The translations under genes were made by a program, and so were the position numbers. Shown here one piece after another: positions 26,478 through 49,395 of a stretch of DNA of 64,000 bases. The DNA comes from Pectinatus frisingensis (GTDB taxonomy: Bacteria; Bacillota; Negativicutes; Selenomonadales; Selenomonadaceae), in NCBI RefSeq assembly GCF_015732285.1, contig NZ_WIQU01000040.1, positions 1 to 64,000 of the forward strand. The letters are read 5' to 3'. Under the pieces are notes generated by a model, which had not been told where the DNA came from, did not search any database, and saw nothing but the letters and a program-made list of their open reading frames with translations. Numbering within the stretch: position 1 is the first letter of the stretch; every line of letters starts with the position of its first letter.

Positions 26478-27604
26478 ATGGCAAAGACAAAAGGTGGACA
26501 CAGGAGACCTAAAGGTGAAGGCTCAATCCAAGTTATGCCTAATGGGAACTATAAGATGACTATAAGTATCGGAGTAGGTCTTGATGGTAAGCAAAAGCGT
26601 AAAAGTATCACAGCAAGCTCCAAACCAATATTGATGTCTAAAGTAGCAAAACTCAGAGTATCTTTAGGACAAGACATTCAACACTCTAGTACCCCAAAGC
26701 TCTTTAAGGATGTAGCTAAACAGTGGCTAGAATCCAAAGAAGGTATGGTGTCAACAAATAGTTATATCAGTTATACTACCACTTATAAATCCTTCTTTTA
26801 CCTTTTTGATTCTTATAGGATAGACAAGATTACCTCAGATATTATAGATGAAGCTCTTATGAGCGTTAAGGGAACTAAAAGTAACCGTAGACCATCTGTA
26901 GGCACACTCATAGGTTACAAAAGGGTCTTAGGTGTCTTTTTCAATTATGCTGTAGACAAACAGTATATAGCAACATCACCTATGAAAAGGACTATGACGT
27001 TCTCTAAAAGGAAGCAAAAGGTTGACCTAGTGATTCCTACTAAAGAGGAACTTAAAGGTATACTACAAGATGCCAAGAAGTTTGATAAGGAGACAAAAGA
27101 TTACACATTACAAATATATCCCTTATTTCTATTAGCTACTGCCACAGGGATGAGGTTAGGTGAAATGTTAAACCTAAGACATTCAGATATAGACATGAAT
27201 ACAAATACCATATTTATTAAGCACAAACTACTTTAGATGGTGCTGACCAACCTTTAAAGACTGAAAGTTCTCAACGAAAGATTTATGTCAACCCAAAGGT
27301 GCTTAAAGTTCTCTCTGGTGACACTGAGTTTCTTTTTAATATCAGAGGAAAACATGCTAAATATCAAGTTGCTGCCACATATCTTCATAGGTACTTTGAG
27401 GATGCTAAGGTTCCTGAAAGGTTCACAATGCACTCCTTTAGACACTATCATGCTACGGAACTCTTATTAAATAAAATTGGGGTCAAAGAAGTAAGCAAGA
27501 GATTAGGACATAGTGACATCCAAACTACTTTAAATCTTTATGCTCACTGGATTCCAGAAATGGACACTGAAGCTGCTAGAGTGATAGATGATAGCTATAT
27601 TTAG
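26478..27604 (+). pseudogene. int: Tyrosine integrase, interrupted by a frameshift
   Basis: Phage integrase of about 375 aa if intact. The first part (to 27236) carries the N-terminal arm-binding and core-binding domains and the first catalytic Arg (TGMRLGEMLNLRHSD). The second part, in the -1 frame, carries HSFRHYHATELL (HxxR), GHSDIQTTLNLYAHW with the late His and the Tyr nucleophile. The frames overlap only at 27221-27233 (an upstream stop at 27218-27220 limits it), around CACAAACTACTT; re-reading one A restores KHK-TTLDGADQPL. No canonical slippery heptamer is in phase. Most likely a one-base deletion or a sequencing error. AGGAGTG precedes the ATG. Confidence 0.85.
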
Positions 27605-46190: not shown

Positions 46191-46475
46191 TTTGTCAACT
46201 CATTTCCCTGATAAATATAATAAGATTGTAGCAACTTTTTAGGCAAACGGCAATACTTTGGGTGTTTCTTCTTGACAAGATTGGTAAGAAATCGCATAAT
46301 TAAGCTAAAATAAATTAATTTAGTAATATATTGTATTTATAGTCTGACTTATATTGCGCATTGGGGCGGTTTTTGCAATATATTAAAATTATTAAATGAA
46401 ATAGTGCATTTACCAGTAATTTATTTTGACTATGGCAATAAATGATAAATGATTTATTGTTATGGAGGATTTTCT
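46191..46475. promoter_or_regulatory. Divergent promoter region between ispE and the pseudo-ATPase operon
   Basis: 285 bp, AT-rich. Just before the plus-strand ribosome binding site lies CAATAAAT (46436-46443), eight bases, ATTTATTG (46452-46459), an 8-8-8 inverted repeat that could be an operator or leader hairpin. No strong consensus promoter is evident. Confidence 0.4.
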
Positions 46476-48467
46476 ATGACGTATCAATTTTACGATTTTA
46501 AGCATTTAGCAATAGTAACAAGTATATCAATATTATTTGATATACTTCTCCTCTATATTTTTTTTGCACCGATATTTATTCTGCCCTTGCCGGAATTTAT
46601 TGCAGGTGCCGTTCCAAGCACGCTTGTATCATTGCGGTTATTGTTATTTTTGCCAATTGTATTCATTAACTATCAGTATTATACTTTTGCAAGCGGAGTT
46701 TTCAAGGGGAAGATTTCGGCGGAACTTCTTGTAGCATTGGGAACACTACTTTTTACCGGACTGGGAATATATAATTTTATTTTGGTACTGATGGGATATT
46801 CATCTGATATAGGCGGCGCGTATTTTGAGTTGATTGGGACTGCTTTGACATTACTGACAGCAGAAAAGTCTATCGAACGATATTTTAATGGTAAAATGCT
46901 GATAAAGCAAAGTGATTTTGAGCCTGATCAGGTTGAGTATGTTTCTGTATTGGATCTTGAAGATAATAGGGAAAAACAACTTTTGATAACCGCAATAAAA
47001 CCGGATGATATCGTAAGTATTAAGCCGGGGCAAAGAATTCCGGCTGATGGTATTGTATTTTGGGGTGAGGGTGATGTCGATGAGGGGCTGTTTACCGGTA
47101 TAAAATCACCCGTTCATAAGATCACTGACGATAAGGTTTATGCTCACACTTTTAATAAATCAGGGACTTTTCAGTACAGAGCCGCCTGCACAAGCGGTGC
47201 GTCGCTTTATTACCGATTACTGAAAGCGGTTCGGGAAGCGCAGTCTGATGAAATATTTATGGAAAAAATTATTGACACAATTACCAAATATATGACAGTC
47301 TTCACTTTTTTTACCGCATTAGTCAGTACTGGAATTGGTATTTATCTACATAAGCCGGTAATGACGATTATATTGGCCGGTGCAATTGTATTGGTGGTCG
47401 GATATCCGCAGATAATCATGATGATGAGGCGTAATGCAGTTGTTGCGGCATTAAAAAAATGCAGTGAATCAGGGATTTTTGTGAAGAATGCTGACAGTAC
47501 CAAATATGTAAAGCATATTGATACACTCATATTGGGGAAAACAGGAATAATTACTAAGGGCAAACCAGTGGTCGCAGATATAATAGCAGAAGGCGTTATG
47601 CCTCAGATGCTGCTTTCTCTGGCAGCAAGTGCCGAAAAAAATTGTGATCATTTGATAGCGAAGGCGATAGTTACTGCTGCTGTACGGAATAGAGCACATA
47701 TAAGGAGAATTTCCTCAATGCAGGAAGTTCCGGGAAGTGGAGTAGAAGCATTAATCAATGGTGAAATAGTTCGTGTAGGTACGGTCGCCTGGCTGGAAAA
47801 AGAAAATATTGATATAAGTGATCAAATGCGAATGAAAGCTTTTCAATCAGCTAAGGCCGGCAACACGGTAATATACATCGCCTTAGGCCGGTACTGCCAT
47901 GGTTTGATTATGCTGACGGATCCAATAGGATACAAAGTCCGCACGGCACTCAGCAGTTTACGGAAGATGGCAATAAATGTGGTAGTTTTTAGTGGCAGTG
48001 ATAAAAATACACTGCGGGCAATCACTGATGAATTGGCAATAAATCAATACCGGGCAGGATTGACTGCCAATGATAAAGCCAGAGAAACAGCATTGCTGCA
48101 CGTACATGGTCTTACGATTGCGGCTGTCGGCAATACTGAAAGTGATGCAGCCTTGTTAAAAACTGCCGATATTGGAATAATGCTTGGAGGCAGTATTAGT
48201 ATAGATGAACCTGTCGATATCATTGTTCCTGCTGCTGATCTTCGGCAAGTCGCTGCAATGTTTCAATTTTTCCGCCAGTTGTCAAAACAGATGAAACAAA
48301 ATATAGCTATAGCTGTTTTATATAATATTTTAGCTGTCATAGCAGCAACAGGCCTTTTTTATTATGACGGACTGTTTGGTTTTGTTACTTTTTTGGCAGC
48401 AGGGTGGGTCATAGCTGTTATCATCATGGGGCGCAATAATTGTATGACGCGGCCTAAACAGAATTAA
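46476..48467 (+). CDS. Catalytically degenerate P1B-type ATPase homologue
   Basis: 663 aa with the overall fold of a heavy-metal P-type ATPase: membrane pairs, actuator, P and N domains and two last helices. Every key motif is changed: TGE of the actuator is TGI (207-209), the metal-binding CPC of helix 6 is GYPQ (309-312), the phosphorylated Asp of DKTGT is Gly354 (GKTGI), the HP of the N domain is HL (392-393) and GDGxND is GNTESD (552-557). No N-terminal metal-binding domain. Yet the frame is fully open and domain spacing is kept, so it is a pseudoenzyme rather than a decaying gene. GGAGG precedes the start. First gene of a three-gene operon. Confidence 0.88.
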   Translation: MTYQFYDFKHLAIVTSISILFDILLLYIFFAPIFILPLPEFIAGAVPSTLVSLRLLLFLPIVFINYQYYTFASGVFKGKISAELLVALGTLLFTGLGIYNFILVLMGYSSDIGGAYFELIGTALTLLTAEKSIERYFNGKMLIKQSDFEPDQVEYVSVLDLEDNREKQLLITAIKPDDIVSIKPGQRIPADGIVFWGEGDVDEGLFTGIKSPVHKITDDKVYAHTFNKSGTFQYRAACTSGASLYYRLLKAVREAQSDEIFMEKIIDTITKYMTVFTFFTALVSTGIGIYLHKPVMTIILAGAIVLVVGYPQIIMMMRRNAVVAALKKCSESGIFVKNADSTKYVKHIDTLILGKTGIITKGKPVVADIIAEGVMPQMLLSLAASAEKNCDHLIAKAIVTAAVRNRAHIRRISSMQEVPGSGVEALINGEIVRVGTVAWLEKENIDISDQMRMKAFQSAKAGNTVIYIALGRYCHGLIMLTDPIGYKVRTALSSLRKMAINVVVFSGSDKNTLRAITDELAINQYRAGLTANDKARETALLHVHGLTIAAVGNTESDAALLKTADIGIMLGGSISIDEPVDIIVPAADLRQVAAMFQFFRQLSKQMKQNIAIAVLYNILAVIAATGLFYYDGLFGFVTFLAAGWVIAVIIMGRNNCMTRPKQN

Positions 48468-48491: not shown

Positions 48492-48701
48492 ATGTTGAAA
48501 ATTTATATTGAAGGTATGACCAATGAGCGTTGTCTTCCACGGGTGAAAGCGGCACTGGGGGATTTAGAGGGAATGCATGAAATAAAAGAGATGAACTTTG
48601 CTGAAAAATATGTTGTTGTGGACTGCAGCACTGACAAAGAAACATTACGGGCAGCTATCAGTGATGAAGGATACAACGTGATTAAAATAGAACAAAATTA
48701 A
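48492..48701 (+). CDS. HMA/CopZ-like small protein with one metal-site Cys lost
   Basis: 69 aa with the ferredoxin-like HMA pattern: KIYIEGMTNERCLPRVKAAL, then KYVVVDCSTDKETLRAAISDE, GYNV. Copper chaperones have GMTCxxC; here the first Cys is Asn (GMTNERC), leaving one. It lies 24 bases after the pseudo-ATPase and has AGGAGGG before its ATG. Both partners of a normal copper-export pair are thus altered in a matching way. Confidence 0.8.
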   Translation: MLKIYIEGMTNERCLPRVKAALGDLEGMHEIKEMNFAEKYVVVDCSTDKETLRAAISDEGYNVIKIEQN

Positions 48702-48714
48702 AAAGGGAGCCAAA

Positions 48715-49395
48715 ATGAAAAAAATATTTTTAGCTGTGATGTTTTCTTTCCTGATAATATTTCCACAATCAGTTAATGCAGAAATACGCCAAACAGAAAA
48801 CGGCACAGTAATAGCAAAAGAAAGTGCATTTACATACAGTCAACCGGCATCAGTTTCTGAAAAAAAGCCGGTAGATGTTTCAAATAGTAAGAAGCAAGCT
48901 GCCAAAGAAAATATTTTTTCGATTTATGTAAAATCAACGCGTTTTTATAATCGGAATAAGATCAACTTTCGAGCCCATCAGGAATTAGATGTAATGTCTA
49001 ATTCAAAGACGATAGACTTATTGTTAGATTCTAAACTGCCGCCGCGTATCGAATACACTAAAGCGGGACTGGTAAAAAAACTGATGCTTAAAAAAATTAG
49101 TTATAACGACCAATATTTTATTTCATTTAAAATTAAACCGGTTGAGCTGATACCACTTTATGATGCTGACAAAGTTGAAATTGTTTTTCCTGTGATAACG
49201 AATGGAACCAATATAAGTTATCAAAAAGATAAAAATGGCGAGTGGAAGCAGGTTTATGTAAAAAAAGAATTAGAGAAAAGTTCGCAAATTAGTGAAGTGC
49301 GTTATGTAATTCCACGACAGATAGTTGGAGAATGGCAAGACGTCTTAAATGCTGATTTACGGCCCGGCAGCATCAGTGCTGAGAGAATGTCCTGA
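48715..49395 (+). CDS. Secreted protein of unknown function, third gene of the pseudo-ATPase operon
   Basis: 226 aa with a signal peptide (KKIFLAVMFSFLIIFPQSVN then AE). The mature part is basic and beta-rich (IDLLLDSKLPPRIEYTKAGL; KIKPVELIPLYDADKVEIVF). It starts 13 bases after the HMA-like gene. No family recognised. Its co-occurrence with the two degenerate metal-transport proteins may indicate a joint envelope function. A terminator follows. Confidence 0.75.
   Translation: MKKIFLAVMFSFLIIFPQSVNAEIRQTENGTVIAKESAFTYSQPASVSEKKPVDVSNSKKQAAKENIFSIYVKSTRFYNRNKINFRAHQELDVMSNSKTIDLLLDSKLPPRIEYTKAGLVKKLMLKKISYNDQYFISFKIKPVELIPLYDADKVEIVFPVITNGTNISYQKDKNGEWKQVYVKKELEKSSQISEVRYVIPRQIVGEWQDVLNADLRPGSISAERMS

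Follow-up and report, generated by a model that had tools for sequence, protein, structure and literature searches.

A P1B-type ATPase of Pectinatus that lacks catalytic and metal-binding motifs and keeps a conserved nucleotide-binding domain

We analyzed a 64,000-nucleotide stretch of Pectinatus frisingensis DNA (here, "the window"), part of a 2.9-Mb genome assembled in 71 contigs. On the forward strand, positions 46476 to 48467 form an open frame of 663 codons, with GGAGG ahead of its start. The encoded 663-amino-acid protein is a degenerate P1B ATPase that we refer to as the pseudo-pump (pseudo-CopA). Its similarity to CopA spans most of the protein (top PDB match, 7r0g; E value, 3.8e-60; residues 29 to 637), and the full-length P1B homology is accompanied by the domain order M-A-M-P-N-P-M. 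The pseudo-pump scored above the cut-off of TIGR01494 (116.6 bits; cut-off, 62.3) and missed the cut-offs of two heavy-metal subfamilies, TIGR01525 (298.4 versus 346.25) and TIGR01511 (213.8 versus 397). An AF2 model with four sequences as input was poor (mean pLDDT, 57.1); a Foldseek search using this poor model placed P1B ATPases at the top (7r0g; E value, 6.5e-31; TM, 0.51; rmsd, 14.9).

When aligned with CopA, the window protein has GKTGI in place of DKTGT (D354G and T358I), YPQ in place of CPC (residues 310 to 312), TGI in place of TGE (E209I), CDHL in place of SEHP (P393L), and GNTESD in place of GDGxND (D553N). The roles assigned to the motif residues scored here follow earlier studies of P-type ATPases, CopA among them. 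We compared four further genomes of the genus, which belongs to the Selenomonadaceae: Pectinatus cerevisiiphilus, P. brassicae, P. haikarae, and a genome designated G004. All five Pectinatus genomes carry an orthologue of the pseudo-pump at the equivalent locus, with open frames and 33 to 57% identity, and the catalytic losses of the window gene are shared by all four of the others. The original prediction, of a full-length P1B ATPase devoid of its catalytic and metal-binding motifs, therefore held, and the presence of the same losses at the same place in the orthologues rules out sequencing error or chance.

We tallied individual residues in the five Pectinatus orthologues against 25 canonical sequences (the sequence L023, from genome G013, was excluded). 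None of the 20 catalytic cells (the Asp and second Thr of DKTGT, the Glu of TGE, and the first Asp of GDGxND) is retained. The codon of the once-phosphorylated Asp, now Gly354, lies at positions 47535 to 47537 (+), and Asp is found there in 0/5 orthologues (G, G, G, A, and G); all five have Ile for the second Thr of DKTGT. At the former TGE motif (now TGI; 47094 to 47102, +), Glu is likewise present in 0/5. At the former GDGxND motif (now GNTESD; 48129 to 48146, +), the first Asp is Asn in 5/5 and the last Asp is retained in 5/5. Metal ligands are also largely gone. The former CPC site (now YPQ; 47403 to 47411, +) keeps its first Cys in one orthologue and its second in none (1/10 cells), and retention is 3/10 for the YN of helix M5 and 2/15 for the MxxSS of M6. 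Among the metal entry residues, Met is kept in 0/5, Asp in 1/5, and Glu in 4/5. One part of the original prediction thus failed to generalize: the YN said to be retained (assigned there to helix 7) has its Y in only 1/5 orthologues and its N in 2/5. The N-terminal HMA stretch is missing in two orthologues (the window protein and L008) and present in three; CxxC is found in none of the five pseudo-pumps. The metal-path losses are not identical from species to species, a variation that fits an absence of selection on the metal path. We considered D349, which is invariant and lies in HIDT, as a shifted nucleophile. We think this unlikely because D349 precedes the catalytic position by five residues and its equivalent is also present in a CopA with intact DKTGT (L002). 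The inference that P-type pumping has been lost rests on sequence alone, and we regard it as nearly certain.

The pseudo-pump gene heads a small operon. Upstream of it we located a sigma70-type promoter, TTGACA-17-CATAAT (46272 to 46300, +), with 11 of 12 consensus matches and with both hexamers identical in the five species aligned. Promoter-like hits in this region are no commoner than in shuffled sequence (15, against a shuffle mean of 12.4), so the promoter call rests on conservation. The intergenic region between ispE and the operon (46191 to 46475) contains the promoter in a block that is strongly conserved in the five species, with promoter-like sites in both directions; the coding sequence downstream of it is the fastest evolving of nine genes compared.

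Two further genes, both absent from the original prediction, follow the pseudo-pump gene. The second operon gene (48492 to 48701, +) encodes a CopZ/HMA-like small protein of 69 amino acids; only the window copy was scored against Pfam HMA (31.1 bits; cut-off, 24.8). This copy has lost its CxxC, with NERC (in MTNERC) where the motif is expected. A CxxC in the normal position is absent from four of the five species (P. frisingensis, P. cerevisiiphilus, P. brassicae, and G004); the P. haikarae protein retains CEHC, and that of P. brassicae has CAKC three residues beyond the normal place (copies of the gene compared with that of the window include L045, 8085 to 8291, and L044, 7995 to 8201). It is possible that the shifted CAKC could still bind metal. 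Within the genus, the metal site of the CopZ-like protein has thus changed against a background of pump motifs that had already been lost in all five species.

The third operon gene (48715 to 49395, +) encodes a 226-amino-acid protein that looks exported, with a signal peptide judged by eye, and that has no Pfam family. Among 189 genomes of the family, this protein was found in seven, namely, the five Pectinatus genomes and two genomes of one other genus; across the class, it has matches in 10 of 380 genomes, of which three are weak or partial. The relatives in the other genus (L041 and L042; 26% identity) lie beside what looks from its sequence like a HAD hydrolase gene, and no P-type gene was seen within the 3.6 kb fetched around them. 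A profile of the third protein found no match among PDB sequences at an E value of 1, and an AF2 model with four sequences as input had a pLDDT of 50.7. Its best matches, P19/FtrA/HftA proteins, several of which are copper bound, were not significant (E values, 0.04 to 0.25; TM, ~0.2) and were given no weight. Matches to two Pfam families, one member each (E values, 0.029 and 0.11), and a weak NCBIfam match below the cut-off were taken as chance. The third protein may be part of the pseudo-pump system, or it may merely sit under the common promoter; we hold either as no more than possible.

Elsewhere in the window, positions 2180 to 24401 (-) hold a run of phage genes that is T7-like by its make-up. 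Pfam identified a single-subunit RNA polymerase, a family A DNA polymerase, and a head-tail connector in this run; other genes were recognized by eye. A tyrosine-integrase open reading frame at 26478 to 27236 (+) matches just residues 4 to 59 of the 172 of the catalytic domain, approximately the first third. Together, the run and the integrase appear to be a prophage or a piece of phage whose integrase is apparently truncated.

Gene order at the locus suggests where the operon came from. In all five Pectinatus genomes the order is ispE, pseudo-copA, pseudo-copZ, and the third protein gene, and csoR is absent. Three genomes of related genera (G018, G027, and G093) have ispE, csoR, copA, and copZ at this place, with DKTGT, CPC, and GDGxND intact. 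Of the six nearest genomes, the remaining three showed no such arrangement: G026 has csoR-copA with no ispE in the preceding 6 kb and a contig that ends within copA, G012 had no match to either ispE or csoR in 15 kb, and G159 had none in the short flank fetched. Since three of the six nearest genomes carry csoR-copA-copZ beside ispE, the Pectinatus operon was likely derived in place from such an operon, with csoR lost and one gene gained.

A profile built on the five pseudo-pumps was used to search 189 genomes of the family, with at most five candidates scored per genome and a capped list. The five Pectinatus proteins scored 1054 to 1178 bits, followed by six ordinary CopA proteins at 452 to 513 bits and then by scores of 389 or less. 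Among the 30 loci returned, DKTGT is absent from the five Pectinatus loci and found in the other 25; in one of these, L091 (G013; the same gene as L023), it was established separately from the script that covered the other 24. More weakly matching degenerate P-type ATPases fall outside the scope of the capped list. When 84,980 species genomes were scanned for two degenerate peptide patterns, which limit the reach of the scan, 12 loci emerged: three Pectinatus records at 35 to 39% identity and nine at 29% or less. In a phylogenetic tree, the five pseudo-pumps form one group with 100/100 support, so the degenerate motifs do mark a conserved clade, as had been proposed as a check; the nearest CopA genes are L011 to L013. 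The terminal branches are long, and the joining of L009 and L010 is possibly long-branch attraction. The tree omits L023 (G013) and includes L012/L086 (G026), which is cut by the contig end.

We compared substitution rates in the pseudo-pump and other genes, using 608 gap-free codons for the pseudo-pump; two orthologues (632 and 709 codons) were trimmed at the N terminus by start choice. For the closest species pair, NG86 gave a dN of 0.321 and a dS of 2.20 for the pseudo-pump (dN/dS, ~0.15), compared with dN and dS of 0.110 and 2.80 for CopA, 0.126 and 1.62 for ispE, and 0.073 and 1.84 for glmU. The dN of the pseudo-pump is thus about three times that of the working CopA. An omega of 1 was rejected for the pseudo-pump (2dlnL, 928.5). 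One-ratio omegas from IQ-TREE (0.036 for both the pseudo-pump and CopA) were not taken as estimates of selection, given the saturation of synonymous sites (tree length of the pseudo-pump, 33.9), and YN00 returned a value in only 1 of 16 comparisons. We also simulated neutral evolution with substitutions only and no indels (200 runs). At 57% identity the simulated frames held a mean of 9.7 stops (minimum, 2) and at 39% identity a mean of 14.3 (minimum, 4), whereas the five real frames hold none. We concluded that the pseudo-pump is under purifying selection, weaker than that on CopA outside the N domain, where constraint is clearly relaxed. The protein thus meets the criteria for a pseudoenzyme: family homology is retained, catalytic residues are lost, and the gene is maintained by selection.

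A CopA with intact CPC, DKTGT, TGE, and GDGxND is encoded elsewhere in all five Pectinatus genomes (its SEHP is SEHF in P. brassicae), and the sole CsoR-family match of the window genome adjoins the intact CopA gene. The motifs of this second CopA are shown to be intact; that it does the copper pumping is inferred. The clade, the selection tests, and the intact CopA together support the original proposal of a pseudo-pump kept under selection. That proposal was to be abandoned if homologues with intact motifs occupied the same locus and selection here had recently relaxed, a combination that is met only in part, since intact genes at the locus exist but belong to other genera, and it is outside the N domain that constraint is relaxed.

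The N (nucleotide-binding) domain, residues 373 to 484 (47592 to 47927, +; borders placed by hand on the alignment), is the best-conserved part of the pseudo-pump. E387, H392, G420, G422, and G435, which we take to be nucleotide residues from their equivalents in ATP7B/CopA, are retained in 24 of 25 cells in the five orthologues; the lone exception is a change of H392 to Val in P. cerevisiiphilus. Retention is 30/55 cells for the remaining N-domain columns that are invariant in canonical pumps (Fisher P value versus the pocket, 1.9e-4) and 322/790 for all other invariant columns (P value, 1e-8). These P values are indicative only, as the sequences are related and not independent. In the P domain, 33 of 40 cells are retained for K355, T356, TGD, K534, and ND, with TGD at 11/15 and the N of ND in 3/5 orthologues.

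Mean pairwise identity among the five pseudo-pumps is 59% in the N domain, 44% in A plus P, 25% in the membrane segments, and 19% in M5-M6. The corresponding values for the working CopA encoded by these genomes are 55%, 73%, 80%, and 91%. The conservation profile is therefore inverted: the N domain is the most variable part of CopA and the best-kept part of the pseudo-pump, and the last two helices (M5-M6) are the least variable part of CopA and the worst-kept part of the pseudo-pump. Because the 95% bootstrap intervals for the N domain overlap (53 to 65% for the pseudo-pump and 49 to 62% for CopA), we conclude that this domain is as conserved in the pseudo-pump as in CopA; greater conservation is not shown. 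For the closest pair, the N domain has a dN of 0.168 in the pseudo-pump and 0.194 in CopA; in the other segments, the pseudo-pump exceeds CopA in dN by a factor of 2.8 to 8. Segment dS is saturated or undefined; that of the N domain, 2.57, is saturated while its dN is 0.168, and the constraint is thus on the protein rather than on the DNA. A circular-shift test found 11 equally extreme placements among 652, every one of them beginning at residues 363 to 373, on the N domain. Of 37 clade-specific invariant residues, 17 fall in the N domain, which makes up 112 of the 663 positions, and 1 falls in the membrane segments, which make up 276. When the 40 invariant columns shared with canonical pumps are added to these 37, only 2 of the 77 clade-invariant columns are in membrane segments. 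The conservation profile shows that selection acts on the cytosolic head of the protein, and chiefly on its N domain; what the head does is inferred. The sensor, regulator, or scaffold roles originally suggested are thereby narrowed, with the signal in the nucleotide domain and not in the membrane part; a sensor acting through the metal path is unlikely because the membrane part is not conserved.

The explanation that we favor, with a probability of roughly 0.58, is that the pseudo-pump is a membrane-anchored, ATP-binding, non-pumping sensor or scaffold. In this explanation, the csoR-copA-copZ pump of a Pectinatus ancestor would have lost phosphorylation, dephosphorylation, and metal transport and been retained for another job, the step for which the sequence comparison is direct evidence. 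The helices would now serve mainly as an anchor; their weak conservation is shown, and this role is inferred. The remaining steps are inferences: the N domain would bind ATP or ADP without phosphoryl transfer, the head would then shift its shape or expose a surface, and its state would be read at the membrane by a partner protein, for which the co-degenerate CopZ-like protein is the likeliest candidate. The proposal that metal-binding domains of CopA are pump regulators and do not deliver copper (PMC11970713) suggests how such a pseudo-chaperone might dock. The explanation is limited by a sample of five species, by the lack of partner or expression data, and by the possibility that the pocket residues are kept for folding. 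The H392 change, the incomplete retention of TGD and of the N of ND, the raised dN, and the poor AF2 model also count against it.

The possibility of a pocket kept for folding underlies the closest rival, a scaffold that only binds protein: a partner, either the CopZ-like protein or an unknown cytosolic one, would dock on the N domain, the pocket would be kept for folding, and nucleotide would be irrelevant. The clade-specific invariant residues N405, R411 to S414, R433, and W439 are near the pocket in sequence and form a potential interaction surface, and the CopZ-like neighbor has been retained although its normal-place CxxC is gone in 4/5 species. Against this rival, the pocket residues are better kept than the other canonical-invariant columns of the same domain, as described above. 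A scaffold of this kind remains possible. We are more doubtful that the pseudo-pump and pseudo-chaperone enter mixed complexes with the intact CopA/CopZ to tune or damp copper export. All five genomes do have an intact CopA, the parts share a common ancestry, and the CopZ-like proteins of P. haikarae and P. brassicae have a normal and a shifted CxxC, respectively. However, the membrane segments are weakly constrained (19 to 28% identity), the copper sensor gene csoR has been lost from the operon, and none of the five pumps has a CxxC. This makes a regulator of CopA unlikely.

Two other explanations have less support. The pseudo-pump might be a cryptic transporter or ATPase that works by a nonstandard mechanism, as reported for ERMA/TMEM94, which has DKQGI and GSSANL, lacks TGES, and shares with the pseudo-pump an Ile for the second Thr (PMC13322241). 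But ERMA needs its Asp (D427N abolishes transport), and this Asp is gone in 5/5 pseudo-pumps; the near absence of clade-invariant columns from the membrane segments argues against transport as well, and we consider this explanation very improbable. Finally, a decaying pseudogene or sequencing artifact would account for the raised dN and the diverged helices. It is all but excluded by five open frames where every neutral run gave at least 2 stops, by the rejection of an omega of 1, and by an N domain conserved to the level of CopA.

A bolder version of the favored explanation would have the whole copper-export operon of a single genus converted to a nucleotide-sensing complex that is anchored in the membrane and independent of copper, with the dead pump as ATP receptor, the mostly metal-free chaperone as cytosolic reader, and the new exported protein outside. 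We offer this version only as a possibility. Pumps of the large P-type ATPase family couple nucleotide binding tightly to phosphorylation and to transport. If the favored explanation is correct, Pectinatus, a beer-spoilage genus, offers a natural lineage without phosphorylation or transport but with a selected nucleotide domain, and thus a clean case in which to study the head by itself. It would also be a bacterial clade of pseudoenzymes in a superfamily for which the literature that we searched describes none. The loss of the normal metal site in most species by the chaperone-like neighbor provides a comparative series for the reuse of a metal-homeostasis module. In the open-licence literature searched, we found no bacterial pseudo-P-type ATPase and no paper joining "P-type ATPase" with "pseudoenzyme," and among the top-ranked open-licence papers for Pectinatus and copper, no title concerned such a protein. 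The main text of PMC11510336 mentions neither ATPase nor copper, and in PMC10654040 "pseudo" occurs once, within a species name.

The pseudo-pump and its neighbors resemble several known systems in part. The P1B-1 CopA of related Selenomonadaceae, encoded in csoR-copA-copZ, is homologous over its length and has the same order of domains and of operon genes; three of the six nearest genomes also carry it beside ispE. The Pectinatus protein differs from it in having no catalytic Asp, TGE Glu, GDG Asp, CPC, or CxxC, and the operon differs in the loss of csoR, the addition of a third gene, and the inverted conservation profile. The second gene product scores as Pfam HMA, like metallochaperones of the CopZ/Atx1 type, but lacks their normal-place CxxC in four of five species (it is kept in P. 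haikarae, and P. brassicae has CAKC). In apicomplexan fusions of a P4-ATPase with guanylate cyclase, a P-type ATPase module is likewise part of a signaling protein; these fusions are P4-like, joined to cyclase domains, and eukaryotic (PMC6592433). The nearest degenerate P-type ATPase in the open-licence literature searched is the animal protein ERMA/TMEM94, which is not a P1B ATPase. ERMA lacks TGES and GDGxND, has DKQGI, and depends on its Asp; it reportedly transports Mg2+, and structures show its N-domain pocket occluded (PMC13322241). It is thus like the pseudo-pump in having no TGES, in the loss of GDGxND, and in the change of the second Thr of DKTGT to Ile. In the Asp and the pocket the two are the reverse of one another: ERMA keeps its Asp and has an occluded pocket, whereas the Pectinatus protein has lost the Asp and kept the pocket residues.
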